Shown here one piece after another: positions 1,284 to 16,848 of a stretch of 34,790 nt of DNA. Source of the stretch: Anaerolineales bacterium (GTDB lineage: Bacteria > Chloroflexota > Anaerolineae > Anaerolineales > Villigracilaceae). The stretch is from NCBI GenBank assembly GCA_017882125.1, contig JADGQC010000008.1:1-34790 (forward strand). The letters are read 5' to 3'. The first letter of the stretch is position 1. Each line of letters starts with the position of its first letter. The notes beneath the pieces are model-generated. The model was not told where the DNA came from, searched no databases, and was given only the letters and a program-made list of their open reading frames with translations. A program made the position numbers and the translations under genes.

Positions 1284-4200
1284 TTATTTCTGGCTTGCCA
1301 TTAACGCCATAAATGCATTTACTACCCGGGGCTCAAAATGCTTCCCTGATTGTTCGAGGATATATTCCAATGCTTTCTCACGAGTCCATGCCTGGCGGTA
1401 AGGACGGTTGGTGGTGAGTGCATCAAATACGTCAACTATGGCGAAAATTCGCGCAACGATTGGGATTTCTTCGCCTTTTAAACCTCGCGGGTAGCCACTA
1501 CCATCCCACTTTTCATGGTGACAATAAGGGATGTTGATTGCCGGACGCAGGTAAGTAATAGGAAAGAGTAAATTATACGCATATTGCGGGTGCTGGCGCA
1601 TAATATTCCACTCGCGCTCATCCAGGGGACCAGGCTTTAGAAGGATTTTATCCGGGATGGCAATCTTGCCAATGTCGTGCAGAAGGGAGCCACGCCGGGC
1701 ATGTTCCGTTTCCACTTCTTCAATACCCATATCCTGGATCAGTTGCAAGGTCAAATCAGTGACCCGCAGGGTGTGACCTTCCGTATCTTCATCCCGCAAT
1801 TCCAATGCTTGTGACCAACCCTGAATAGTTGCATCATATGCCAATGTCAGCTCAAGGTTGGACTGTTGCAAGTTTACAAAGAGGCGGCCATTATCAATGG
1901 CTATAGCGGTTTGCCCTGCCAACATCTCAAAGAAACTTATCCATTCCTGGTCAACCTGCATGGGAGAACGACGGAAGATTTCAAGGACACCCTGGATCTG
2001 ACCTTTGGCGATCAAGGGGATGGCATGATAGCCGACGAAATTTTCTCCTTCCAGATACTTAACCAGCAAGGAAGCTGAATTGGACACAGGATGTTCCATA
2101 ACCTGTGCCACCTCATCGGTCTTTTGAAGATCCGTGATATTTATGGCACGCCTCTGCAAAGCGGACTGCCCAGCCAAACCTTCTCCCAGCCGCAGGCGTA
2201 ATCCTTCGACGGAATGCGCCCGGAAGCCACGCCCGGAGGCATATTCGAGCATCCTTGTCAACGGGTTGAAAAGCAAAACGGCAGCGGCATCCGCCTTCAG
2301 TTCCGTCATGATATTTTCCAGGACGATATTAAGAGTGACATTCGTATCCACACTTGCACCGATAGCTGCATCAATAGAATGCAAGGCTGAGAGTCGGTGC
2401 AAGCGCAGTTGGGTCTCAGAGAAAAGCCGGGCGTTTTCAATTGCCACTGCAGCCTGGGAGGCAAAAGTTACCAACAAGCCCAGGTCAGATTCCGTAAATG
2501 CAGATTTTCGAGAGACATTGTCCAGGGATATGACTCCAATTACCTTTCCTTTAACAATTAGAGGAGCGGCAATTCCGCTTAGCACGGCATCAATCTCTTC
2601 AATTTCACCCTTAAATGGAATCTCATATTCAGAATGGACATCATCAATCTTTAAAGGTGTCCGCTCACGAGCAACCCGAGCCGCATACCCATTCTGATTT
2701 GGAAGGAATAAGTCGATTAAGCGGGGATCTGAGTAGCCTGTGAGAGCATGAAGGCGGAGTAAACCGTCAGGTTCTGTAAGAAGGATGGCTCCTTTTTCAG
2801 CTGCGGGAATTGCCTTCCTGGCCCCTGCCAGGATATTTTCAAGTAATGGCTGCAATTCAACTGCACTCGTCAAGGAGACGCTCACCTGAGAAAGAGATTC
2901 GAGCTCAGCCAAACGGTGACGAGTTTCTTCGAACAGGCGGGAATTTTCAATGGCAATCCCGGCATAAGCTGCCAGTGTTTTCAAAAGAATCTCATCCTCT
3001 TCAGAATAGATGTTTGGACGATAATCCTGAACTGAAAGGACGCCAACTATTTTGGCCCCAGAATGAAGTGGTAATGCAATAATGGACCGTGGAGTACCCG
3101 GCTTCCCAAACCTGGCAGTTTTGACCGGTTTTTCCTTCAGGGAATCTAATACGCGAAAAGACTTTTTCGCATCGATGACGTAGCCGGCCAACCCTGAACC
3201 CCAATCGGAATCAAAAGCTGGAAAGCGTTCACCCCGATCAAAAAGGTATACTGCTCGAAGCACTTTCCGGTTTTCATCTGCCAGCGAGATTGTGAAGACA
3301 TCCAGGGGCATTAATTGTCTAATCGCCTGATGGATGGAATGGTAAACCTGTTCAAGGTCGAGACCGGCTGAAGCAATTTCCTGACCGGCGCGATATAGCA
3401 CCGCTCGGCGTTCCGCTGCGCTGACGACATCCTGGTACAAACGAGCGTTCTCAAAGGCATTGGCTGCTTCGGATGCCAAGGTTTCCATAAAGATCTGGTC
3501 TTCCGCACTATAGACATCCGGATCGCTGCTTTGTGCAGATATCACCCCGACGATCTTATCCTGCACCAACAGGGGAACTGACAAGACCGCCCGAGCTGGC
3601 TCCCCACCATCGACCAAAACAGGTTTTGTCCCCCTGATATTCAGCACATCCTTAATTCGTAAAGATTTTTTACTTTTTACTACTCGCCCTGTTATGCCTC
3701 CATTTTTTGGCATTCGGGTATTAGGGTGGCGAATGCCGCGGTCGTACATGTAAGGAGCTACAAGCTCACGACCATCCTCGGTTATGAGTGAGACAACAAA
3801 GGCCTCCGCGGGCATTACCTGCTGAGCGGCCTGGTGAATTGCGTGACAAAGAGCCTCCACATCCTGCCCAGCCCGAACAATATCGAGACCGCCCTGGTGC
3901 AAGGCATCCTTGCGTTTCGCGGCTTTTACTGCCTCTTGATACAAACGTGCATTCTCAAAGGCAATCGCGGATTGTGTCGCAAGTGTTTGAAGCAGGTGCT
4001 CATCTTCTTCGCTAAAGCGATCAATTTGGCGACTTTCCACAATGACAGAACCAAGAACCCGCTCACCAATCATCAAGGGTACATAAAGCCCTGAACGAAT
4101 TTCAGGGAAAGCAGATATGTAGCGATCATCAGCAAGTACATCCCCACTTCGGATCGTCTTGCCGTGGGATACCACCCAACCACTTAATCCCTGCGTTGTG

Positions 4201-7200
4201 GTTGCAAACATTTGATTTAGGCGGTCAATTTCAACCTTAATTTCGGTGGGATTTAGACCTGGTCTATTGAAAGCAAGTAATTCAACTTGTTTTGTTTCAG
4301 GATGGTACAACCGGATGGCGGCATTATGCCACTCCAGTTTTTGCGACAGAATATCAATCATTTTTTGCGCAATAGCCCGAGGATCGAGCAACACGCTTAC
4401 GCTAAGACCATTTTCATAAAGGACTTCAAGGTCAGCCACCCGACGCTGTATCTCCTCTTCCGCCTGCCTGCGCTCGGTGATATCGTGCATATTAATTACC
4501 AGACCCTGAACCGCTGATTCATTAAGCAGATTGGAGGCAGTCGCTTCAATCCAGTGCCAAGACCCATCTTTATGCTGGTTCCGAAAGGTTGATTGGCGAA
4601 TCTCTCCCGGATGCTGGACCAGGTCGTTTATAACCCGGGCAACAACGCTTTTGTCATCGGGATGAATATATTCGTACCCGCTTTTGCCAAGGCGCTGGCT
4701 GGAAGCCCAGCCCATCATTCTTGAGTAGGCAGGGCTTTCATACAGGATTAATCCACGTGGGTCGACCAGGACAACGGCATCAGTATTATTCTCGATCAAA
4801 GCGCGGAAATATTTTTCACTATTCTGAAGCGCTTCCTGAGCTATTTTACGTTCGCTAATGTCTCTGCCTGAACCTAAAATACCAAATGGCTGTCCCTGTG
4901 GATTACGGATAAGAGTGAAAGTTATTTCGCTCCAGTAACTGGTTCCGTCCTTTTTATAAAACTCCAGCTCAATGTCCCGGGACACGTGACGGTGGGGGTG
5001 GGCAGTGTTTTCAGGGGACAAGATATCGGAAAACAGTTTTAAGGCTCGTTGAAGTGATTCCGGGTGCATTTGCCGATCAAGCGGGATATTATTGAGTTCA
5101 TCGAGGGTAAAACCGCGGAGACGTGACACGGAAGGGCTGGCATAGGTTGTGCGCAGACTCATATCCATCAACCAAACCGTATCGCTCATATTCTCGGCGA
5201 GCATACGGTAGCGTTCCTCGCTGAGACGGATCTGTTCCTCAGCCATTTTACGAGCGGTGATATCCCGAAACGACCAAACCCGGCCTTGAATTTTGGAGCC
5301 TTGGATTAATGGACATGATAATCGCTCAAAGACCCTTCCATCCTTAAAATTAATGGTATCGAAACTTTCCTTCCTGGATCTATAAAGGTCCTGAACCTTC
5401 TTGAGGAAAATTTGCGGGTCGTAAAGTTGATCGAGGACGCTTTGAAGGAGTAGAGCGTCATCTTTACTGGCCATGATTTCCTTGGAAATTCGCCATATAT
5501 CAGCGAAACGTTCGTTTGCATAAAGCACATTATTGTCAGTTCCAACCGCTAAAATACCATCTGCTGTAGACTGAAGAACTGCCTGCAACGAAGATTCGCT
5601 CTGCCTCAAGGCATCTTCTGCCTTCCTGCGTTCTGTTATATCAGTCAGGGTCCCCTCAAAGTAGAGCGCATTGCCCTGCCAATCGCGGATTACCTGGGTG
5701 TTTTCAAGTACATTGATCTTGTGACCATCCTTGCGCCGCATGGAGGCTTCAGCATTGCGCAACTCCCCTTTTTGCATCAAAATGGTGGCCCAAGATTGGC
5801 GGGCATCGGGATTTATGTACAGATCGCGGGCGATATCTACCTTAAGAAATTCATCTGCGGAGGAATAGCCAAAGATCCTGACCAACGCCGGGTTTACCGA
5901 TAAAAATTTTCCATCTATAGTGCTACGATAAACCCCATCTGGAATGTTTTCAAATAAGCTGTGGTAATTCTTCTCGGCTTCAAGCAGGGCTTTTTCGGCC
6001 ATGAAACGCTCGGTAATGTCGCGCGCCACCCAGAGGGTGGAATTTTCCGTCATTGGAGAAATGGATGTCTCAAACCAAACAGTCCTTCCACTTATGTTTA
6101 AATCATATTCTATTTGGGAGGTTTGTTTTGTATCAAGAACCTTTTGAACAACGTGGATAAAGTTTTCCGCCTGTTCAAGCGGGAATACTTCCCGTAAGGT
6201 TTTTCCAACCAATCCACCAGAAGACACGACCAGCAGTTCGGGATTAGTGGTGGCGACTTTAAGATAAACCCCGTTCCGGTCAATCACCAGTACCACATCT
6301 TCCATGGATGTGAACAAAGCGCGCAACTCTGCATCTGAAGCTGCCAAAGCCTCTTCAGCATGGGTGCGTTCTACAATTTCCAGTTGGGCTTGCTCGTACA
6401 AATGGGCATTCTGTAGGGAAATGGCTGCCTGATTCCCAAACGCAGCAATAGCAGGAATATCCGCGGAAGAAATGTCAGGACCAGTGACGGCCAAGATTCC
6501 AATCGCTTCATCACCCACTTTTAAAGGAGTGAAAATTGATTGATCTAATTTGAAAAGAGAAGTTATTGTGCGAACAAGAGAACGAAATTTTCGAGGTAAA
6601 GTTTCTGCGACGGCAAGGGCAGGATCTGAAACAAAAATAGTCTCCCCCTGCTGAATGGCACGCTGATAAATACTGTTTTTTTCCGGATGAAATCGGAAAT
6701 TTCGAAGTATAAGTCCAGTTGCTTTTTCAGCCTTGCGTATCAAATCTGCTTTATAGTTAATATATAAAATATGCAGGGATTGGTCATCCGCTGAAATTTC
6801 GAAACCCGTGGTGTGGTAACCCAACTTGGTAAACTGGGTCTGGATCGCCTGATAAACTCCAGAAGTGGTCCGAGAGCTTTGGACTGCCTGCGCTGCCTGA
6901 TTAAGAGCTAATAACAAACGATTGGCGTGCGCAGTCTCTTCCTGAGAGTGAAGTAAATCCTGTTCGACTTGCCTGCGCTCCTTGATCTCTTGTTGCGCCT
7001 GTTCGAACAGGCGCGCATTGTCAATGGCAACTGCGGCATGACCGGCCAGCATTTCAAGCAATTCCCGATCCGCTGTAGTGTAAGCGCCTGGGTGGTAACT
7101 CTGAGCGGAAACCATGCCTGTAGCTTTTCCTTTTAGCAACAGCGGTACGGCCAAAATCGACGCTGTTTCAGGCCCAGTGCCATAGGGTACAAAATTGATT

Positions 7201-8279
7201 CCACTCGCACTAATTTCTTCCAGGTTGTTCAAGATTAAGGATTGACCTGAATGAATGATATACCCACCCAACCCGTGGTCTGCTTTATAGGGATTTAGCG
7301 ATATTCTTTTCCCATTCTCCAGAATGTAATTTCCCACCATTTCATTCGTCGTTTCATTATATAAACTGATTAAGAAATCTTCGCACGACATAACCTGTTT
7401 AACAGCACGTTTGACGGCTACGAAAACCTGTTCAGTATCAAGGCTCGCACCAATCGCTTCCCCGGCACGATATACAATGGACCAACGTTCCACCATACGT
7501 TGAAGGTCCTGTTCAGCCTGTTTCCGCTCAGTGATGTCATGTGCATTGATTATGATGCCTTTAATCGCGGAATCATTTAGCTGGTTGCTCCCCGAACCTT
7601 CGAGAATTCTCCAAGACCCATTTTTATGATGAATCCGTAATTGCATTGATACCGGTACCGGGGTTAGTGATTGGATAAGCTTACGGAAAGTCTCAATAAA
7701 ACCAGGCATTTCTTCGGGATGGATGTAATCCTGAAGACCAGACCCAATAACAACATCTTCCGGTGAATATCCCAGAAGATGCTCGAGAGAAGGACTGATA
7801 TATTTCAGGGTTGCATCGGAGTTCAAGATGCAAATAAGGTCGGAAGAGTTTTCAATGAGAGAGCGGAAACGGGCTTCGCGTTCAAGAAGAGCATGGCTTG
7901 CAGAGTGTTTTTCAGAGGCCCGGCGAATAGCCACCAGGAGCTGATCCACCTCGTAAGGTTTTTGAAAATATGAATATGCCCCCAAATTGACTGCTTCGAT
8001 CGCAGTGGCCTGTGAGGCATGACCAGTAAGCATGATGCACTCTGTCTCGGGAGAAACCGACTTGATGCTGCGCAGGACATCCAGACCAGATATCCCTTCC
8101 AACTTGATATCGATTAGGACAACATCTACATCCTGCTTTTGTATATAGGCTAAAGCAGCTGGTCCGGTTTCAACTGGTACCGATTCAAAACCCTTGACCT
8201 TGAGGATATCGCTCAAAACGCCGCGCAGATTGGGATCATCGTCCAACAGCAGAACTTTGGTCATCTTGTCATCCACCAT
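1284..8279 (-). CDS. Giant response regulator: REC, 6 PAS, 7 GAF, HD-GYP (putative cyclic-di-GMP phosphodiesterase)
   Basis: 2331 residues from the ATG at 8279, chosen because GGGAG lies 5 nt upstream. An ATG at 8336 would add 19 residues but has a poor ribosome site; an ATG at 8264 is also possible. Domains in order: receiver (6-123; acidic pocket DDD, phospho-acceptor D57, T85, K107), PAS (136-255), two GAF (265-425, 455-630), five PAS (650-755, 770-885, 897-1008, 1020-1143, 1155-1270), five GAF (1282-1445, 1458-1615, 1627-1785, 1795-1953, 1962-2135), HD-GYP (2150-2330). PAS units end in the usual DITER linker. The HD-GYP domain keeps HD at 2201-2202, HH at 2254-2255 and GYP at 2262-2264, the residues needed to hydrolyse cyclic di-GMP. 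No histidine-kinase or GGDEF domain and no membrane span is visible, so it looks like a soluble integrator of many signals. Cognate kinase unknown; a kinase remnant lies about 1 kb upstream. Confidence 0.93.
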   Translation of the reverse strand: MVDDKMTKVLLLDDDPNLRGVLSDILKVKGFESVPVETGPAALAYIQKQDVDVVLIDIKLEGISGLDVLRSIKSVSPETECIMLTGHASQATAIEAVNLGAYSYFQKPYEVDQLLVAIRRASEKHSASHALLEREARFRSLIENSSDLICILNSDATLKYISPSLEHLLGYSPEDVVIGSGLQDYIHPEEMPGFIETFRKLIQSLTPVPVSMQLRIHHKNGSWRILEGSGSNQLNDSAIKGIIINAHDITERKQAEQDLQRMVERWSIVYRAGEAIGASLDTEQVFVAVKRAVKQVMSCEDFLISLYNETTNEMVGNYILENGKRISLNPYKADHGLGGYIIHSGQSLILNNLEEISASGINFVPYGTGPETASILAVPLLLKGKATGMVSAQSYHPGAYTTADRELLEMLAGHAAVAIDNARLFEQAQQEIKERRQVEQDLLHSQEETAHANRLLLALNQAAQAVQSSRTTSGVYQAIQTQFTKLGYHTTGFEISADDQSLHILYINYKADLIRKAEKATGLILRNFRFHPEKNSIYQRAIQQGETIFVSDPALAVAETLPRKFRSLVRTITSLFKLDQSIFTPLKVGDEAIGILAVTGPDISSADIPAIAAFGNQAAISLQNAHLYEQAQLEIVERTHAEEALAASDAELRALFTSMEDVVLVIDRNGVYLKVATTNPELLVVSSGGLVGKTLREVFPLEQAENFIHVVQKVLDTKQTSQIEYDLNISGRTVWFETSISPMTENSTLWVARDITERFMAEKALLEAEKNYHSLFENIPDGVYRSTIDGKFLSVNPALVRIFGYSSADEFLKVDIARDLYINPDARQSWATILMQKGELRNAEASMRRKDGHKINVLENTQVIRDWQGNALYFEGTLTDITERRKAEDALRQSESSLQAVLQSTADGILAVGTDNNVLYANERFADIWRISKEIMASKDDALLLQSVLDQLYDPQIFLKKVQDLYRSRKESFDTINFKDGRVFERLSCPLIQGSKIQGRVWSFRDITARKMAEEQIRLSEERYRMLAENMSDTVWLMDMSLRTTYASPSVSRLRGFTLDELNNIPLDRQMHPESLQRALKLFSDILSPENTAHPHRHVSRDIELEFYKKDGTSYWSEITFTLIRNPQGQPFGILGSGRDISERKIAQEALQNSEKYFRALIENNTDAVVLVDPRGLILYESPAYSRMMGWASSQRLGKSGYEYIHPDDKSVVARVINDLVQHPGEIRQSTFRNQHKDGSWHWIEATASNLLNESAVQGLVINMHDITERRQAEEEIQRRVADLEVLYENGLSVSVLLDPRAIAQKMIDILSQKLEWHNAAIRLYHPETKQVELLAFNRPGLNPTEIKVEIDRLNQMFATTTQGLSGWVVSHGKTIRSGDVLADDRYISAFPEIRSGLYVPLMIGERVLGSVIVESRQIDRFSEEDEHLLQTLATQSAIAFENARLYQEAVKAAKRKDALHQGGLDIVRAGQDVEALCHAIHQAAQQVMPAEAFVVSLITEDGRELVAPYMYDRGIRHPNTRMPKNGGITGRVVKSKKSLRIKDVLNIRGTKPVLVDGGEPARAVLSVPLLVQDKIVGVISAQSSDPDVYSAEDQIFMETLASEAANAFENARLYQDVVSAAERRAVLYRAGQEIASAGLDLEQVYHSIHQAIRQLMPLDVFTISLADENRKVLRAVYLFDRGERFPAFDSDWGSGLAGYVIDAKKSFRVLDSLKEKPVKTARFGKPGTPRSIIALPLHSGAKIVGVLSVQDYRPNIYSEEDEILLKTLAAYAGIAIENSRLFEETRHRLAELESLSQVSVSLTSAVELQPLLENILAGARKAIPAAEKGAILLTEPDGLLRLHALTGYSDPRLIDLFLPNQNGYAARVARERTPLKIDDVHSEYEIPFKGEIEEIDAVLSGIAAPLIVKGKVIGVISLDNVSRKSAFTESDLGLLVTFASQAAVAIENARLFSETQLRLHRLSALHSIDAAIGASVDTNVTLNIVLENIMTELKADAAAVLLFNPLTRMLEYASGRGFRAHSVEGLRLRLGEGLAGQSALQRRAINITDLQKTDEVAQVMEHPVSNSASLLVKYLEGENFVGYHAIPLIAKGQIQGVLEIFRRSPMQVDQEWISFFEMLAGQTAIAIDNGRLFVNLQQSNLELTLAYDATIQGWSQALELRDEDTEGHTLRVTDLTLQLIQDMGIEEVETEHARRGSLLHDIGKIAIPDKILLKPGPLDEREWNIMRQHPQYAYNLLFPITYLRPAINIPYCHHEKWDGSGYPRGLKGEEIPIVARIFAIVDVFDALTTNRPYRQAWTREKALEYILEQSGKHFEPRVVNAFMALMASQK

Positions 8280-8336
8280 TAATTCTCCCGACGAAGTAAC
8301 GGGTTTTTTGGATATTTCAAATTCAATAAACGGCAT

Positions 8337-9898: not shown

Positions 9899-9918
9899 TT
9901 GCATCATTTCTGCAGATG

Positions 9919-9949
9919 CCGGGTCTCGAAGGGGACCCGGTTTTTATTT
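9919..9949 (+). terminator. Rho-independent terminator after the cold-shock gene
   Basis: Stem CCGGGTC (9919-9925) pairs with GACCCGG (9934-9940) across an 8-nt loop and is followed by TTTTTATTT (9941-9949). It ends the csp transcript and separates it from the ferredoxin gene, which must therefore have its own promoter between 9950 and 10015. Confidence 0.85.
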
Positions 9950-10015: not shown

Positions 10016-10279
10016 ATGGGTATCCAAATTTCTTTGAGTCGTGAATCTCAACGCCGGGAAGTCCTGGTATCTGGGCATGTTGTTCCAAAGCCAGGACGGT
10101 GCGTTCAGTGCGGGATTTGTTCCTTCAATTGTCCAATCGGGATTGATGTGCGCAGACATGCCTGGCTGGGAGAACATATTGAAGCATCCCAGTGTTTGAC
10201 CTGTGGTGAATGCGTCAGGCGCTGCCCACGTGGAGTATTGAGCTTTGAAAGAACCGAACTGTTCATGAAGGGATTTTAA
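10016..10279 (+). CDS. Small ferredoxin-type protein with two [4Fe-4S] motifs
   Basis: 87 residues. Two clusters of cysteines, C29-x2-C32-x2-C35-x3-C39-P and C60-x2-C63-x2-C66-x3-C70-P, each match the [4Fe-4S] ferredoxin pattern. The 20 residues between them are longer than in classic clostridial ferredoxins and resemble the 4Fe-4S domain of HdrC- or GlpC-like electron carriers. Its stop codon overlaps the ATG of the next gene (TAATG at 10277-10281), so the two are translationally coupled and the proteins probably form a complex or a redox pair. No signal peptide, hence cytoplasmic. The exact partner and potential cannot be read from sequence. Confidence 0.88.
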   Translation: MGIQISLSRESQRREVLVSGHVVPKPGRCVQCGICSFNCPIGIDVRRHAWLGEHIEASQCLTCGECVRRCPRGVLSFERTELFMKGF

Positions 10280-11592
10280 TGAACCGATATGTAATCGTTG
10301 GTACTGGTGTGACCGGAGTGACAGCCTTAAATACTTTGCGGACCAATGACCCATCTGCGAAAATAAGCATGGTGGGAGATGACCCGCACGGGTTTTACTC
10401 GCGCCCGGGCATAGCTTACTACCTAAACGGTGAGATTCCTGAAAACCAACTCCCGATATTTTCAAAGAAGGATTGGAAACCATTGAACGTAGACATTGTT
10501 AAGGGAGTCGCTTCCCGGTTAGACCTCCGAAACCACCTGTTGGAAATCGATTCTTCAAGCGTCTTGAAATACGATCGACTGCTGATAGCAAGCGGATCAA
10601 CTGCTGTGACACTTACCATTCCAGGAGCAGGTTTGAAGGGAGTAGTTAAACTCGATGATTTTGAAGATACGCGCCACATCATATCATTGGCAAGACATGC
10701 CAATTGCGCTGTTGTGGTCGGAGGGGGGATCATTGCTGTCGAACTGGTGGAAGGTTTGATGGCAAGAGGTCTCAAGGTTCACTATTTCCTGCGCGGGGAC
10801 CGATACTGGCCCAATGTTTTGGATGAAAAAGAATCCCGTCTGCTCGAGCATCGGCTTGCCGAAGATGGAGTAATTCTCCATTATCAAACAGAAGCCGCGG
10901 AAGTGCTCGGTAAACGTGGAAAAGTTGTGGGTGTGCGCACCACCAAGGGCGAAACCATCCGCTGCCAGGTAGTAGCAGTAGGGATCGGCGTGAAGCCACG
11001 CATGGAACTAGCGAAATCCGCAGGGCTCGCAACCGACCGGGGAATCCTGACGGATGAAACCCTGCAGACCAGCAGCCCCGATGTCTTCGCGGCCGGGGAC
11101 GTTTCCCAAGTTCACGATCCCCAAAGTGGGAAATCCATTGTTGATACATTATGGCATCCAGCTCTCGATAAAGGTAAGGTCGCTGCCATCAACATGACCG
11201 GTAAGAGGAACACTTACGTTAGAACCTTAACGACGAATGTTCTTCGCCTGGCGGGTGTATTGACGTCCATCATCGGTGCGGTGGGAAGCGGGGTTGACGA
11301 CGACCTGGTCAGTGTGGCACGCGGATCGAGCGAGACCTGGCATGAATTACCAAATACCATCTCCCTGGAAAGCAATGGAGATGTGAACCATGTGCGCCTT
11401 ATGATCGGCGAAAAAAACCTGGTGGGGGCAATTGTAATGGGAGATCAAAAACTATCCGATCCCATACAGGAATTAATTTCTTCGAAAGTTGATATTTCCT
11501 CCATACGAAATCTACTCATCCCCGGCGCTCCATTGGGTCAGATAATCATGGATTTCTGGTCGGCGCATAAACTGCCAGTAAGAAGTGCATAG
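10279..11592 (+). CDS. FAD-dependent NAD(P)-disulfide-type oxidoreductase
   Basis: 437 residues. It has the FAD dinucleotide fold at the N-terminus (VIVGTGVTG, residues 5-13), a second nucleotide fold for NAD(P)H (VVVGGGIIAVE, 145-155) and the FAD-closing motif VFAAGDV (269-275). This is the layout of the NADH-dependent reductases related to rubredoxin reductase and the N-terminal part of NirB. The redox-active CxxxxC of true disulfide reductases is absent from the first domain, so it should pass electrons from NAD(P)H to a protein partner, most simply the ferredoxin encoded immediately upstream (1-nt overlap), or the reverse. It lies 109 nt before the large cytochrome genes. Substrate not known. 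Confidence 0.87.
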   Translation: MNRYVIVGTGVTGVTALNTLRTNDPSAKISMVGDDPHGFYSRPGIAYYLNGEIPENQLPIFSKKDWKPLNVDIVKGVASRLDLRNHLLEIDSSSVLKYDRLLIASGSTAVTLTIPGAGLKGVVKLDDFEDTRHIISLARHANCAVVVGGGIIAVELVEGLMARGLKVHYFLRGDRYWPNVLDEKESRLLEHRLAEDGVILHYQTEAAEVLGKRGKVVGVRTTKGETIRCQVVAVGIGVKPRMELAKSAGLATDRGILTDETLQTSSPDVFAAGDVSQVHDPQSGKSIVDTLWHPALDKGKVAAINMTGKRNTYVRTLTTNVLRLAGVLTSIIGAVGSGVDDDLVSVARGSSETWHELPNTISLESNGDVNHVRLMIGEKNLVGAIVMGDQKLSDPIQELISSKVDISSIRNLLIPGAPLGQIIMDFWSAHKLPVRSA

Positions 11593-11658
11593 GGCCTCAT
11601 TTGTTGCAGTCCAGTTGGGTCAAGGGATTGGAGTCACAAGATTCCTCCCCTCTTAATT

Positions 11659-11697
11659 GGTAACCCATTTTATTCTGAAGCCTTGCTGAAATAGGAG
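11659..11697 (+). pseudogene. Possible scar of a second cytochrome b gene 3' end
   Basis: Just before the first cytochrome c gene, one frame reads FYSEALLK then stop. The intact cytochrome b gene ends LYYATLLK then stop at the same distance before the second cytochrome c gene. The 13 bases TTGCTGAAATAGG are identical at both places. It suggests that a cytochrome b-cytochrome c unit was duplicated and the upstream cytochrome b lost. The match is short, so chance is possible. Confidence 0.4.
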
Positions 11698-11701
11698 AAC
11701 C

Positions 11702-14242
11702 ATTAAAAATACCCGGCTAGGTTGCTTAACTGCTACAGGTGTCATGGCTGCAGTACTAACTCTCCTAATCACTGCAGGGTTCGCTTTAGCATCGGGTGGA
11801 ATGTTATTCAGCCCCGGCGCCCTCAATGCGCGTATGGGCATTCCCTTGGGCGGCACAGGTTCAAATAATGCACGAGAAGGTGCTCCGCTTGGCGGAGTAA
11901 GCTCGCATGCGGAAATTACAGGCCAATGCGATTTATGCCATGCCCCATTCTGGAGTCCGACAACAATGGCGGACAGGTGCGTGGCCTGTCACACCGATGT
12001 TGCTGCACAATGGCTTGACCCCGCCACATTGCACGGGACGCTGCGCCAAAATAACCCAGATTTGGCCTGCCGCGATTGCCATCCCGACCACCGGGGTCCA
12101 GATTCCCCGTTGGTAGACCTAAGTAAAGCGAGTTTCCCCCACACCACTTTCGGTTTTTTGTTGACAGCCCACCAATTTAAAAGTGATGGATCACCATTCA
12201 GCTGCAACGATTGTCATGCGAAGGTTTACACGGGGTTCGACCAGAACGCCTGTACCAGCTGCCATTATCAAATAGATGCAACTTTCGTGGCAGGTCATGT
12301 GCTTGATTTCGGCATTGACTGCATAGCATGCCATAATGGGGTGGACAACTATGGTCATAATTTCAACCACAACAAGGTAACCTTCCAGTTGACCGGAGGT
12401 CATACCCAGGTGGCGTGTGCGAAGTGCCATGTAAATACGCGCACCCTGGCAGACCTTAAGTCAACCCCGCAAGACTGCAAATCCTGTCATGCAGGGAATG
12501 ATGTCCACCAAGGGCGCCTTGGAAGCGATTGCGGTTCGTGCCACACAACCGCGGGTTGGACTCCAGCAACTTATGACCACAACCAGTCCGTGTTCAAATT
12601 AATCGGGCTTCATTCCGATGTTGCCTGTGCAGATTGCCACATCAATCATGTTCTCCAGGGTACTCCCACGGACTGCAATAGCTGTCACGCGCCTAAAGAT
12701 GTTCACCAGGGTCGTCTTGGGACAGATTGTGGATCCTGCCACACAACCGATGGGTGGACACCAGCCACATATGACCATAATCTGTCAGCATTTAAACTGA
12801 GTGGACAACACACAATAACCGCGTGTGCGGACTGCCATGTCAATCAAGTGCTGCAGGGTACACCGACTGACTGCTTTGCATGCCACGCCCAAAAAGACGC
12901 CCACAAGGGTGCTCTAGGTAATGCCTGCGGTACCTGCCATAATGCTGCAGCATGGAAACCCGCATCCTACAACCACGACCTGGCAACTTTCAAATTGACG
13001 GGGCAACATACAACTGCCACCTGCCTGAGCTGTCATGCCAATAACGTTTATAAAGGCACTCCCGCTGACTGTAATTCCTGCCACGCAGCAAAAGATGTCC
13101 ATAATGGGAATTTGGGTAAGAATTGTGGTTCCTGCCATTCAACCAACGCATGGAAACCATCCAGCTACAACCACAACCTTGCAACATTTGCATTAACCGG
13201 GCAACACATTAATATTGGTTGTACAAATTGTCATGCGAATAATGCATTCTGGGGAACTCCAAGCGACTGCAATTCCTGCCATTCTGGGAAGGATACTCAT
13301 CACGGTCAGTTGGGACCGAATTGCGGACAATGCCACTCAACCAGCGCATGGCTACCTGCAACTTTCAACCATAATATGTCCAGTTTTAAATTGACCGGTA
13401 AACATGCGAACGTTGATTGTACCGGATGCCACAGCAATAATGTCTTTAAAGGTACTCCCACCAGTTGCAATGCATGCCATGCCACCCAAGACCCTCACGG
13501 TGGTCAATTCGGGAGTAATTGCGGTTCCTGCCATACAACCAGCGGCTGGCTCCCGGCAACGTTCGATCACAATCTTTCCTCCTTCAAGTTGACAGGAGCA
13601 CATACGAGCGTTAATTGTGCCCAATGCCATCCTGGCGGCAACTTCAGTAGTGCTTCTTCAACCTGCTCAGCTTGTCATGCTCAGCCAAGTAGTCATTTCG
13701 GGAACGATTGCGCACAATGCCACACGACCAGTAATTGGAATGCTTCCTATTCACATACCGGATTTGCATTGACTGGTGCGCATTCGAACCTGACGTGCAC
13801 TAAGTGCCATACTGGCAGTGGTTATACGGGGCTTTCGACAGACTGCGCGTCCTGTCATGCTGAGCCGTCTGGCCATTATGGCACCAATTGTTCTTCATGC
13901 CACACCACCAGCAATTGGAACGCCTCCTATTCACATACGATTTTCCCGCTAACCGGCGCACACTCCAGCCTGGCCTGCACACAGTGTCATACCGGGAGCG
14001 GTTATACGGGGCTTTCAACAGACTGTGCGTCCTGCCATGCTCAACCATCTGGCCATTATGGTACCAACTGTTCATCCTGCCACACGACCAGCAATTGGAA
14101 CTCAACTTTCTCTCACCCAAATTCTTGTGGGGGAAGCTGCACCAGTCACCATCGAGCCACCTGCACTGATTGTCACCCCAGCAGCAACTATTCCACTTCC
14201 GATTGTCGAAAATGCCATGACAGCAACAATCCCGGAGGCTAG
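11702..14242 (+). CDS. 35-heme c-type cytochrome, N-terminally anchored or secreted
   Basis: 846 residues when read from ATT at 11702; the first ATG in frame is 11744. I prefer 11702 because AGGAGA stands just upstream, and IKNTRLG there aligns with MKNTQLG at the start of the paralogue at 14949; the ATG start would cut the signal sequence short. After one hydrophobic segment (about residues 10-35) I count 35 CXXCH heme sites: six in an N-terminal head, 27 in nine tandem three-heme modules, and two at the end. The first six modules are about 66 residues long (CADCH..TPTDC..CH..DVHQG..CGSCH..DHN..GQH), the last three about 60. Histidines outside the motifs recur in each module and could supply the second axial ligands. 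The tail has a non-heme CGGSC pair. Likely function: long-range electron transfer outside the membrane, fed by the adjacent cytochrome b. Confidence 0.93.
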   Translation: MKNTRLGCLTATGVMAAVLTLLITAGFALASGGMLFSPGALNARMGIPLGGTGSNNAREGAPLGGVSSHAEITGQCDLCHAPFWSPTTMADRCVACHTDVAAQWLDPATLHGTLRQNNPDLACRDCHPDHRGPDSPLVDLSKASFPHTTFGFLLTAHQFKSDGSPFSCNDCHAKVYTGFDQNACTSCHYQIDATFVAGHVLDFGIDCIACHNGVDNYGHNFNHNKVTFQLTGGHTQVACAKCHVNTRTLADLKSTPQDCKSCHAGNDVHQGRLGSDCGSCHTTAGWTPATYDHNQSVFKLIGLHSDVACADCHINHVLQGTPTDCNSCHAPKDVHQGRLGTDCGSCHTTDGWTPATYDHNLSAFKLSGQHTITACADCHVNQVLQGTPTDCFACHAQKDAHKGALGNACGTCHNAAAWKPASYNHDLATFKLTGQHTTATCLSCHANNVYKGTPADCNSCHAAKDVHNGNLGKNCGSCHSTNAWKPSSYNHNLATFALTGQHINIGCTNCHANNAFWGTPSDCNSCHSGKDTHHGQLGPNCGQCHSTSAWLPATFNHNMSSFKLTGKHANVDCTGCHSNNVFKGTPTSCNACHATQDPHGGQFGSNCGSCHTTSGWLPATFDHNLSSFKLTGAHTSVNCAQCHPGGNFSSASSTCSACHAQPSSHFGNDCAQCHTTSNWNASYSHTGFALTGAHSNLTCTKCHTGSGYTGLSTDCASCHAEPSGHYGTNCSSCHTTSNWNASYSHTIFPLTGAHSSLACTQCHTGSGYTGLSTDCASCHAQPSGHYGTNCSSCHTTSNWNSTFSHPNSCGGSCTSHHRATCTDCHPSSNYSTSDCRKCHDSNNPGG

Positions 14243-14359
14243 GGTCTTCCGGAAGATGTATTTGCTGTAATTCCTAACTGATTGATACGGTAAAATTACA
14301 AATACGAGATTGACTGACCTCATCCGGTCGGACAACAGGGAAAGTTATGGAGGATATTT

Positions 14360-14941
14360 ATGACGCATTACATGACACGATATAGTGGGAACCGGGGATT
14401 ATGGTTGTCTTTTTTGGCCGCCATTCTCATCAGCGCAATTTATGCTGTTGTCGTCTTTTTTACCAGAGCGATTCCTCCTGCGGGTGCATTATTTGGTCAC
14501 CTGCTGGGAATTGTTGGTTTTATTCTCATGCTGATGACCGAAATCCTGTATTCCATCCGCAAGCGCAGCCGGTCAGCTCGGTGGGGAAGCATGGCCTCAT
14601 GGCTCCAATTCCACATTTTCACCGGCCTGGTTGGACCCTTCATGGTCCTGCTGCACTCCTCCTGGAAGTTCAACGGCCTGGCAGGAGCCACCACCCTTTT
14701 AACCATCCTTATCGTAATCAGTGGGTTTATCGGACGATATATCTACACCCAGATCCCGCGCTCACTGGAGGGGGTTGAGATTGAGACGACCGCCGGACAG
14801 TCCCAGGCCTCAGGCCTGGCACGCGCTCGACGTTTACTTGCGATCTGGCACATCATCCACATACCGATCGGGATGGCCCTCTTCGTAGCAGCATTCATTC
14901 ATATCGGTGCGGCGTTGTATTATGCTACGTTGCTGAAATAG
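14360..14941 (+). CDS. Diheme b-type cytochrome, membrane protein
   Basis: 193 residues with about five membrane spans (roughly 15-36, 43-64, 82-101, 107-130, 162-189). Two of them carry a pair of histidines 14 residues apart, H85/H99 and H167/H181, the classic geometry for two stacked b hemes across a membrane, as in ferric-reductase-type and other diheme cytochromes b. H47 and H164 are additional candidates. A loop at 131-160 with several charged residues separates the last two spans. GGAGG lies 7 nt before the ATG. It sits between two large cytochrome c genes and ends 7 nt before the second, so it is the obvious membrane link between the cytoplasmic redox pair and the external cytochromes. 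Family name uncertain; the diheme call comes from the histidine spacing. Confidence 0.8.
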   Translation: MTHYMTRYSGNRGLWLSFLAAILISAIYAVVVFFTRAIPPAGALFGHLLGIVGFILMLMTEILYSIRKRSRSARWGSMASWLQFHIFTGLVGPFMVLLHSSWKFNGLAGATTLLTILIVISGFIGRYIYTQIPRSLEGVEIETTAGQSQASGLARARRLLAIWHIIHIPIGMALFVAAFIHIGAALYYATLLK

Positions 14942-14948
14942 GTAATTG

Positions 14949-16727
14949 ATGAAAAATACCCAACTGGGTTTCTTTACTGTTTCCGGTATCATTGCTGCCG
15001 TCCTTACCATCATAATAGTGGCGGCGTTTGCGTTAACGTCGGGAGGGATGTTGTTCAGTCCAGGCGCTCTCAATGCCCGGACCGGTATCGCATTGGGCGG
15101 TGTGGGTTCAAATAACGCACGTGCGGGAGCCCCCCTTGGCGGGGTGAGTTCACACGCGGAAATTGCGGGTAAATGCAACCTGTGTCACGTCCCATTCTGG
15201 AGTTCATCCACGATGGCCGACCAATGCCTGGTTTGTCATAAAGATGTAGCCGTTCAACTGCTAGTCCCGACACCACTGCACGGGACTCTCCACCAGGAAT
15301 ATCCCAGCCTGACCTGCAGCAACTGCCACCCTGACCACCGTGGTCCAACCCCACCTCTTACTGACCTAAGCAGCATAGGTTTTTCCCACAATTCGTTCGG
15401 TTTTTTATTAACCAATCACCAGGTTAAAAGCGATGGATCGCAATTCATTTGTGTCGATTGCCATACGCAGAACTACACCAGTTATGACCAGAGCAATTGC
15501 AGCACTTGTCATGCCCAAATTGATACCAGTTTTACTCAAAGCCACGTCAAGGATTTCGGGGCAAATTGTCTGGCATGTCATGATGGAGTGGATACTCTCG
15601 GTCATAATTTCGATCACAATTCCGTCACATTCCAGTTGACAGGGAATCATGCCCAAGTAGCTTGTGGGCAGTGCCATATTAATGACAAAACCCTGGCAGA
15701 TCTCAAATCCACTCCGCAAGACTGCGTTTCCTGCCATTCAGCGAAAGATGTACACTGGGGCCGGCTCGGCCCAGATTGCGGGGCGTGCCATACCAACACT
15801 GGCTGGGTGTCTGCCGCCTATAATCACGATCTGGCTGCCTTCAAATTGAACGGACAACATTTAATCGTAAGTTGCGGGGATTGTCATGTCAACCATGTTC
15901 TTCAGGGAACACCGACCACATGCAGTGCCTGCCATCAAGATAAAGATGTTCACCAAGGCCGACTTGGGGCCGCTTGCGATTCATGCCATACCACCCATGG
16001 TTGGACACCCGCAACATATGACCACAACCTGTCTGCTTTTAAACTGACAGGATTACATACTACAACAGCCTGCGCGAATTGCCATATCAATCACGTGCTG
16101 CAAGGTACGCCAACCGACTGTTATACATGCCACGTATCACAAGACAAGCATAATGGCCAGTTCGGTAGTGACTGCGGTACCTGCCATTCAACAGGAGGCT
16201 GGCTGCCAGCATCATTCGACCATCCCCGCTTTGGGTTTACTTTAACCGGTGCTCACGCACCTTTAAATTGTGCGCAATGTCATTCAGGGGGCAGTTACAC
16301 TGGATTATCGACCGCTTGTGTTGCCTGCCACGGCGAACCACCCGTGCATGCCGGAATGTTCGGGACAAACTGCGCACAATGCCACAGTACCAGCAATTGG
16401 AACGCTTCTTTTTCCCACTCAAACTTCCCAATGGATGGCGCACATGCCAACCTGGCGTGTTCACAATGTCATTCCAGTGGAAGTTTTGGGGGCCTTTCAG
16501 CAGATTGCGCTTCCTGTCACGCGGAACCATCGGGGCATTACGGCTCTAACTGTTCATCCTGCCACAATACCAGCAACTGGAATGCATCTTTCGCACATCC
16601 CAACTCATGCGGTGGCAGCTGCCTCAATCACCACCGGGCGACCTGTGCCGATTGTCACCCAAGTGGCAGTTATTCTTCATCAGATTGCCGTAAATGCCAT
16701 GACAGCAACAACCCAAATGGTGGCTGA
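14949..16727 (+). CDS. 23-heme c-type cytochrome, paralogue of the 35-heme protein
   Basis: 592 residues from ATG at 14949 (a TTG at 14946 directly precedes it), 7 nt after cytochrome b. The hydrophobic N-terminal segment, the following FSPGALNAR...GAPLGGVSSHAE stretch, the six-heme head and the tail are near copies of the 35-heme protein. I count 23 CXXCH sites: six in the head, 15 in five three-heme modules (three of the ~66-residue kind, two of the ~60-residue kind) and two at the end. The twelve-heme difference from the paralogue equals exactly four modules. The closing CGGSC, HHRATC and SDCRKCHDSNNP segments are shared. Exported by the Sec route and anchored or released; it should carry electrons away from the membrane. 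Followed by a hairpin region at 16763-16823. Confidence 0.94.
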   Translation: MKNTQLGFFTVSGIIAAVLTIIIVAAFALTSGGMLFSPGALNARTGIALGGVGSNNARAGAPLGGVSSHAEIAGKCNLCHVPFWSSSTMADQCLVCHKDVAVQLLVPTPLHGTLHQEYPSLTCSNCHPDHRGPTPPLTDLSSIGFSHNSFGFLLTNHQVKSDGSQFICVDCHTQNYTSYDQSNCSTCHAQIDTSFTQSHVKDFGANCLACHDGVDTLGHNFDHNSVTFQLTGNHAQVACGQCHINDKTLADLKSTPQDCVSCHSAKDVHWGRLGPDCGACHTNTGWVSAAYNHDLAAFKLNGQHLIVSCGDCHVNHVLQGTPTTCSACHQDKDVHQGRLGAACDSCHTTHGWTPATYDHNLSAFKLTGLHTTTACANCHINHVLQGTPTDCYTCHVSQDKHNGQFGSDCGTCHSTGGWLPASFDHPRFGFTLTGAHAPLNCAQCHSGGSYTGLSTACVACHGEPPVHAGMFGTNCAQCHSTSNWNASFSHSNFPMDGAHANLACSQCHSSGSFGGLSADCASCHAEPSGHYGSNCSSCHNTSNWNASFAHPNSCGGSCLNHHRATCADCHPSGSYSSSDCRKCHDSNNPNGG

Positions 16728-16780: not shown

Positions 16781-16795
16781 TAAAGAAATAAATAT

Positions 16796-16823
16796 ACAAG
16801 CCGGCTTCCACGAGCCGGCTTGT
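16796..16823 (-). terminator. Terminator of the MFS exporter gene
   Basis: A perfect 11-bp stem, ACAAGCCGGCT (16796-16806) with AGCCGGCTTGT (16813-16823), 6-nt loop. Read leftwards it is followed by TATATTTATTTCTTT, so it fits as the end of the MFS gene and may also stop the cytochrome transcript coming from the other side. Confidence 0.75.
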
Positions 16824-16848
16824 ATCATTACAATAAGAATGAGTCGTT

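Follow-up and report, generated by a model that had tools for sequence, protein, structure and literature searches.

A putative electron-transfer gene unit in an Anaerolineales genome

We analysed a 34,790-nucleotide stretch of DNA (hereafter the window; contig JADGQC010000008.1 of assembly GCA_017882125.1) from an Anaerolineales bacterium of the family Villigracilaceae. At positions 10016-16727 of its forward strand lie five genes, all on the same strand, which encode in this order a ferredoxin (Fd), an FAD-dependent pyridine nucleotide oxidoreductase (FAD protein), a first multiheme cytochrome c (MHC1), a membrane cytochrome b (cytb) and a second multiheme cytochrome c (MHC2) (Table 1). A sequence-only reading of the window had proposed them as a possible complete cluster for electron export. 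The open reading frames, the CXXCH counts and the Pfam matches agree on this gene set, and two details of that reading were seen again in the sequence: the Fd and FAD genes overlap in TAATG at their junction (TTTTAATGAACC), and 7 nt separate the cytb stop codon from the ATG of MHC2 (14949). The word complete was an overstatement with regard to the links to quinone or complex I and to the surface anchoring of the multiheme cytochromes. Because terminator-like stems lie on both sides, the unit Fd-FAD-MHC1-cytb-MHC2 may form one transcript; the consensus scan that found them gave 6 sites in the region and 8.1 in shuffled sequences, fewer than in the shuffles, and is hence weak evidence.

Table 1 Features of the five-gene unit and its borders in the window
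Feature	Position	Strand	Description and evidence
Fd, 2[4Fe-4S] ferredoxin	10016-10279	+	87 aa, 8 Cys; Pfam Fer4
FAD-dependent pyridine nucleotide oxidoreductase	10279-11592	+	437 aa; Pfam Pyr_redox_2
MHC1, 35-heme cytochrome c	11702-14242 (ATT 11702 as likely start; open reading frame called from ATG 11744)	+	832 aa as called, 35 CXXCH
Nine triheme units of MHC1, 66-70 aa long in six of them and 60 aa in three	12383-14122	+	CXXCH spacing, unit alignment
cytb, membrane cytochrome b	14360-14941	+	193 aa, no Cys, five predicted long helices
MHC2, 23-heme cytochrome c	14949-16727	+	592 aa, 23 CXXCH
Five triheme units of MHC2	15630-16604	+	unit listing
Terminator-like stem between the preceding small gene and the unit	9918-9941	+	consensus scan, 10 pairs, T-rich tail
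Terminator-like stem between the unit and a convergent MFS gene	16794-16825	- only	consensus scan, 13 pairs

A four-gene core is conserved in relatives

The surroundings of cytb were compared in 80 loci, namely the window and the best 79 of 184 relatives from a scan of named genomes, all 79 being titled Anaerolineales, Anaerolineae or other Chloroflexota. Kinship is ignored in the counts, and one palindromic contig appears twice among the loci, as L129 and L130. As the loci had been selected by cytb alone, its neighbour genes are an independent result. The FAD gene lay at most 600 nt upstream of cytb in 73 of the 80 loci; of the seven exceptions, five leave no room upstream, and the distance was 738 nt in L128 and 2771 nt in the window. 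Fd adjoined the FAD gene in 69 loci, and in the 11 misses the upstream sequence is missing. A multiheme cytochrome gene followed cytb directly in 77 loci, which is every locus with room for it (77/77), the three misses ending before or just into this gene. A multiheme cytochrome gene between FAD and cytb was found in the window only.

The conserved module is thus made up of the four genes Fd-FAD-cytb-MHC (MHC standing for one multiheme cytochrome). Conservation of gene order in relatives was one of the tests by which the sequence-only reading was to stand or fall: order is indeed kept across the 80 loci, but for this core and not for all five genes. More distant families of the order keep the genes side by side, though sometimes in another arrangement (L055, L059-L061). 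The cytb gene was present in 30 of 61 relatives. Among 152 genomes of this family 92 had it, and among 400 taken from the phylum 45, about half of the last being distant matches. Within the genus, FAD and cytb were either both present or both absent in all 11 genomes.

A distant version of the cassette (L062:3994-10671; genome G011, contig C115) encodes an 806-aa FAD protein, an iron-sulfur protein and an 826-aa protein in which a cytochrome b region is combined with five CXXCH motifs. On contig C62 of genome G028 (L050, L129 and L130), the cassette and its flanks form a perfect-looking inverted duplication about one centre, likely an assembly artefact. Genes for electron-transfer flavoprotein (Etf) and acyl-CoA dehydrogenase were found near the cassette in L035, L038, L040, L045, L057, L064, L069, L070 and L092, and EtfA only in L085, some of these being the same genome counted twice. 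A coupling to beta-oxidation through these genes was considered and dropped, because they lie on the opposite strand in every one of these loci and are missing near most of the 79 loci.

The membrane cytochrome b

The two H-x13-H pairs noticed in cytb were located at H85/H99 and H167/H181 and proved invariant in relatives: H47, H85 and H99 occur in 80 of 80 sequences and H167 and H181 in all 79 aligned, with H164 in 98.7% of 79. Two or more such pairs appeared in 1.4% of shuffles of the protein. The AlphaFold2 model (mean confidence score pLDDT 80) has five long helices. Loops 2-3 and 4-5 are rich in Arg and Lys, so that according to the positive-inside rule H85 and H167 would lie towards the cytoplasmic face and H99 and H181 towards the outer one, and two stacked hemes would span the membrane. 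By comparison with relatives, translation probably starts at the second ATG (14372).

No sequence or fold match was strong enough to place cytb in the NADPH oxidase (NOX)/ferric reductase family or in the b561 family. Its only Pfam match, to PF01292 (prokaryotic b561), fell below the gathering cut-off (24.9 vs 30.1 bits); among PDB sequences the single protein found no match, and a profile search gave matches at chance level only.

Ferredoxin and FAD protein

The eight cysteines that bind the clusters of the ferredoxin are conserved throughout 69 aligned sequences. The FAD protein matches Pyr_redox_2 (E 1.4e-46), is closest to ferredoxin/rubredoxin-NAD reductases and has no conserved redox Cys pair; its best PDB match, 8c0z_E, carries the annotation of a potential aldehyde oxidoreductase subunit. 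In such proteins, an Arg after the second Rossmann strand together with the lack of an acidic residue there goes with a preference for NADPH. The strand of the FAD protein usually ends in Leu and not in an acidic residue, and R172 is invariant in 75 sequences, which suggests that NADPH is the preferred donor.

A common heme plan of the multiheme cytochromes

Both cytochromes of the window far exceed ten hemes, with 35 and 23 CXXCH motifs, and match the Pfam families Cytochrome_C7/Cytochrom_c3_2 (MHC1 matches Cytochrome_C7 at E 9.8e-43, above the cut-off). The motifs of MHC1 are laid out as a six-heme head with spacings of 17, 30, 45, 16 and 23, followed by triheme units with a period of 32, 16 and 18 and by two final hemes, that is 6+9x3+2 = 35. 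MHC2 has the same head and tail (6+5x3+2 = 23). The head spacing was found in 95 of 99 uncut multiheme cytochromes. At least two forms of end were seen, some proteins closing with a two-heme tail and others with a final unit whose spacing is 13,26. In 98 uncut proteins the number of hemes varied between 11 and 47; divided by 3, it left a remainder of 2 in 52 proteins, of 0 in 45 and of 1 in a single one; counts of 0 or 2 modulo 3 in 97 of 98 would have a binomial p of 4e-16 if the proteins were independent, which they are not. This pattern suggests that the length of the wire is set by the number of whole triheme units between head and end. When nine units from the window were aligned, the unit of about 66 aa had three CXXCH motifs and three further invariant His, possibly one distal ligand for each heme. 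A profile of the unit matched best the nonaheme cytochrome 1duw among PDB entries, with 3ov0 at E 0.0003; MHC2 itself found no match among PDB sequences. The 47-heme protein (L094:12422-15889) differs from the simple plan in having head-like segments (37,17,23,32,20) repeated within the chain.

MHC1 has an N-terminal hydrophobic segment, inside which the open reading frame begins as called; its gene is probably longer at the 5' end. At 11702 an ATT codon, in frame and closely preceded by AGGAG, aligns with the start of MHC2 (IKNTRLGCLT vs MKNTQLGFFT), and MHC1 has no ATG at this place (11692-11744); the likely explanation is a point change or the rare use of ATT as a start codon. Among 95 heads, those of MHC1 and MHC2 are each other's best match (66%). 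MHC1 therefore looks like a local duplicate, and a separate lineage for it is not favoured.

The host genome

The genome to which the window belongs is 91.8% complete, and the searches for heme-copper oxidase (COX1) and for the Omp85/BamA family both had working controls. Neither family was found in this genome, whereas Omp85/BamA was detected in 7 of 14 control genomes; an outer membrane is therefore not expected. The single membrane, the missing oxidase and the missing outer-membrane porin of the sequence-only reading thus find support, there being no porin gene in the unit. Cytochrome-c assembly genes are present, as are complex I-type and NiFe families. A row of genes for a pentaheme cytochrome, a molybdopterin protein and an FeS protein elsewhere in this genome, which has no match to heme-copper oxidases (L153:7718-12026, contig C252), resembles alternative complex III in our reading.

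A proposed route for electron export and its alternatives

From the genes, motifs, conserved order and heme plan described above, we infer the partners, the choice of cofactor, the topology, the outward direction, the external acceptor and the role as a sink. We regard it as rather probable that the cassette exports electrons from NAD(P)H or ferredoxin through cytb to heme wires at the surface, as a transmembrane conduit of a single-membrane bacterium. The cytoplasmic FAD protein would oxidise NAD(P)H and exchange electrons with the 2[4Fe-4S] ferredoxin, and the ferredoxin, or the FAD protein and ferredoxin as a pair, would dock on the positive cytoplasmic loops of cytb. Electrons would then traverse the membrane through the two stacked bis-His hemes, from that of H85/H167 on the inside to that of H99/H181 on the outside, and enter the secreted multiheme cytochrome at its conserved six-heme head. 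The triheme repeats would carry them on to an acceptor outside the cell, such as a mineral, humic matter or a partner cell. Such a conduit would be an electron sink through which NAD(P)H and ferredoxin are oxidised again, akin to a redox valve. Since electrons would leave without protons, it would conserve no energy by itself and would cost membrane potential, and the gain would be the reoxidation of the cofactors. A monoderm isolate of the Chloroflexi, Ardenticatena, is described as producing both anodic and cathodic current (PMC5808234).

Several points weigh against the proposed conduit. Bioanode Anaerolineales that have large multiheme cytochromes are described as mostly planktonic and not on the electrode (PMC7399161). 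In the fold search, cytb reached Z 5.7 with SpNOX and Z 5.9 with CybB, both within the range of unrelated helical proteins, and the structure model of MHC2 (pLDDT 44) was unusable. A second locus of the same genome (L154:6019-8802, contig C254) encodes Fd, an FAD protein 58% identical to that of the window and a 14-heme cytochrome and has no adjacent cytb, so that cytb may be shared between the loci or may not be needed. Finally, COX1 occurs in 130 of the 152 genomes of the family and in 84 of the 92 that carry cytb; the other eight include G529 and G533, for which the lack of COX1 was deduced from their absence from the COX1 list.

The cassette is thus no replacement for an oxidase: the absence of an oxidase characterises this genome and some others of its genus, not the cassette, and as an argument for direct electron exchange with the outside, for which the sequence-only reading had used it, it fails in general. 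The odds ratio for the association of cassette and COX1 was 3.2 in the 152 genomes (Fisher p 0.018) and 3.5 in the 88 of high quality (p 0.12). Kinship is ignored in both values, so we claim only that no negative association was seen.

Use of the same chain for electron uptake, or in either direction, is unlikely in our estimation. Ferredoxin and NADP+ or NAD+ would then be reduced with electrons from minerals, electrodes or partner cells. The genes do not fix the direction, the current of Ardenticatena runs both ways, and a strong internal acceptor is often at hand in the COX1 of the family carriers. Reduction of ferredoxin or NAD(P)+ from outside nevertheless requires a donor of very low potential, and the genome studied here has no COX1. 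Quite unlikely, too, is that cytb is a menaquinol dehydrogenase that feeds the multiheme cytochrome, with Fd and the FAD protein serving another partner or a regulatory role. The complex I-type genes of this genome could supply quinol, and a weak similarity to PF01292 is present in 18 of 22 members (E up to 0.01), with cytb of the window below the cut-off; against this, the two predicted stacked hemes with ligands on the cytoplasmic side, and Fd and FAD as constant neighbours, suggest that electrons come in from the cytoplasm. We hold it to be improbable that the cytochromes chiefly store charge or buffer redox changes at the cell surface, as has been proposed for large multiheme cytochromes acting as capacitors (PMC7399161, PMC11495043): the cassette is common in oxidase-bearing genomes, yet the fixed head and ends with a variable number of repeats are not explained by storage alone, although they do not conflict with it.

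Relation to known systems

In NADPH oxidases, ferric reductases and STEAP proteins, electrons pass from NAD(P)H to FAD and then across the membrane through two bis-His hemes held by H-x13-H pairs. cytb shares with this type (SpNOX, 8qq7) two such pairs on two helices; the cassette differs in that its FAD part is a separate, unrelated protein, a ferredoxin stands between, a multiheme cytochrome is the acceptor, and no sequence match was seen. Likewise, an FAD protein between NAD and a ferredoxin-like subunit is known from 8c0z_E and from the epsilon subunit of NADH-dependent phenylglyoxylate dehydrogenase, but the cassette has neither a tungsten nor a 2-oxoacid enzyme subunit, and the NCBIfam score of 154 bits falls short of the 475 bits of the cut-off. 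The dodecaheme c7 polymer of Geobacter (3ov0) and triheme c7 are also built of chained triheme c7-like units; the cytochromes of the cassette differ in their six-heme head, their end module and their up to 47 hemes, and match 1duw better. Porin-cytochrome complexes (Mtr/Pcc) are set apart by their porin, for which the unit has no gene, and by the lack of the Omp85 family in this genome.

Large multiheme cytochromes of variable heme number from Anaerolineales are already in print for bioanode and aquifer genomes, with no porin-cytochrome complex and with a suggested single membrane (PMC7399161). Compared by description alone, the cited parts of that account name no ferredoxin, FAD or cytochrome b partner and give no triheme-unit rule; growth by whole triheme units sharpens its remark that such proteins may gain or lose heme motifs two or several at a time. 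A 24-heme cytochrome has been described in RBG-9 (PMC3971608). Ardenticatena maritima shares with our case the monoderm Chloroflexi cell and surface cytochromes and differs in that its largest multiheme cytochrome, as given in the cited part of the report, has seven hemes (PMC5808234).

No description of the Fd-FAD-cytb-MHC cassette or of the head-repeat-end rule was found in searches of an open-licence literature collection. Extracellular electron transfer by multiheme cytochromes is known as a kind, and this variant of it looks new. To our knowledge, electron export by single-membrane bacteria without porins is poorly known beyond Firmicutes. We tentatively suggest a quinone-independent outlet with a NOX-like layout assembled from unrelated parts, widespread in uncultured Anaerolineales, in which cytb would charge modular heme wires directly; these wires would lengthen or shorten by whole triheme units, the docking head and the end staying fixed. 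If electron export is correct, solids or partner cells could serve single-membrane bacteria as a sink for electrons. Sediments, digesters and anammox reactors are rich in Anaerolineales, most of which are uncultured; the four genes as a marker would allow their electron exchange to be tracked and tested, and a fixed head with counted triheme repeats offers a natural length series for the study of heme wires.

Elsewhere in the window, the minus strand at 1284-8336 encodes a 2350-aa signalling protein in which a response regulator, many PAS/GAF-like segments and an HD-GYP-like end were recognised by eye.

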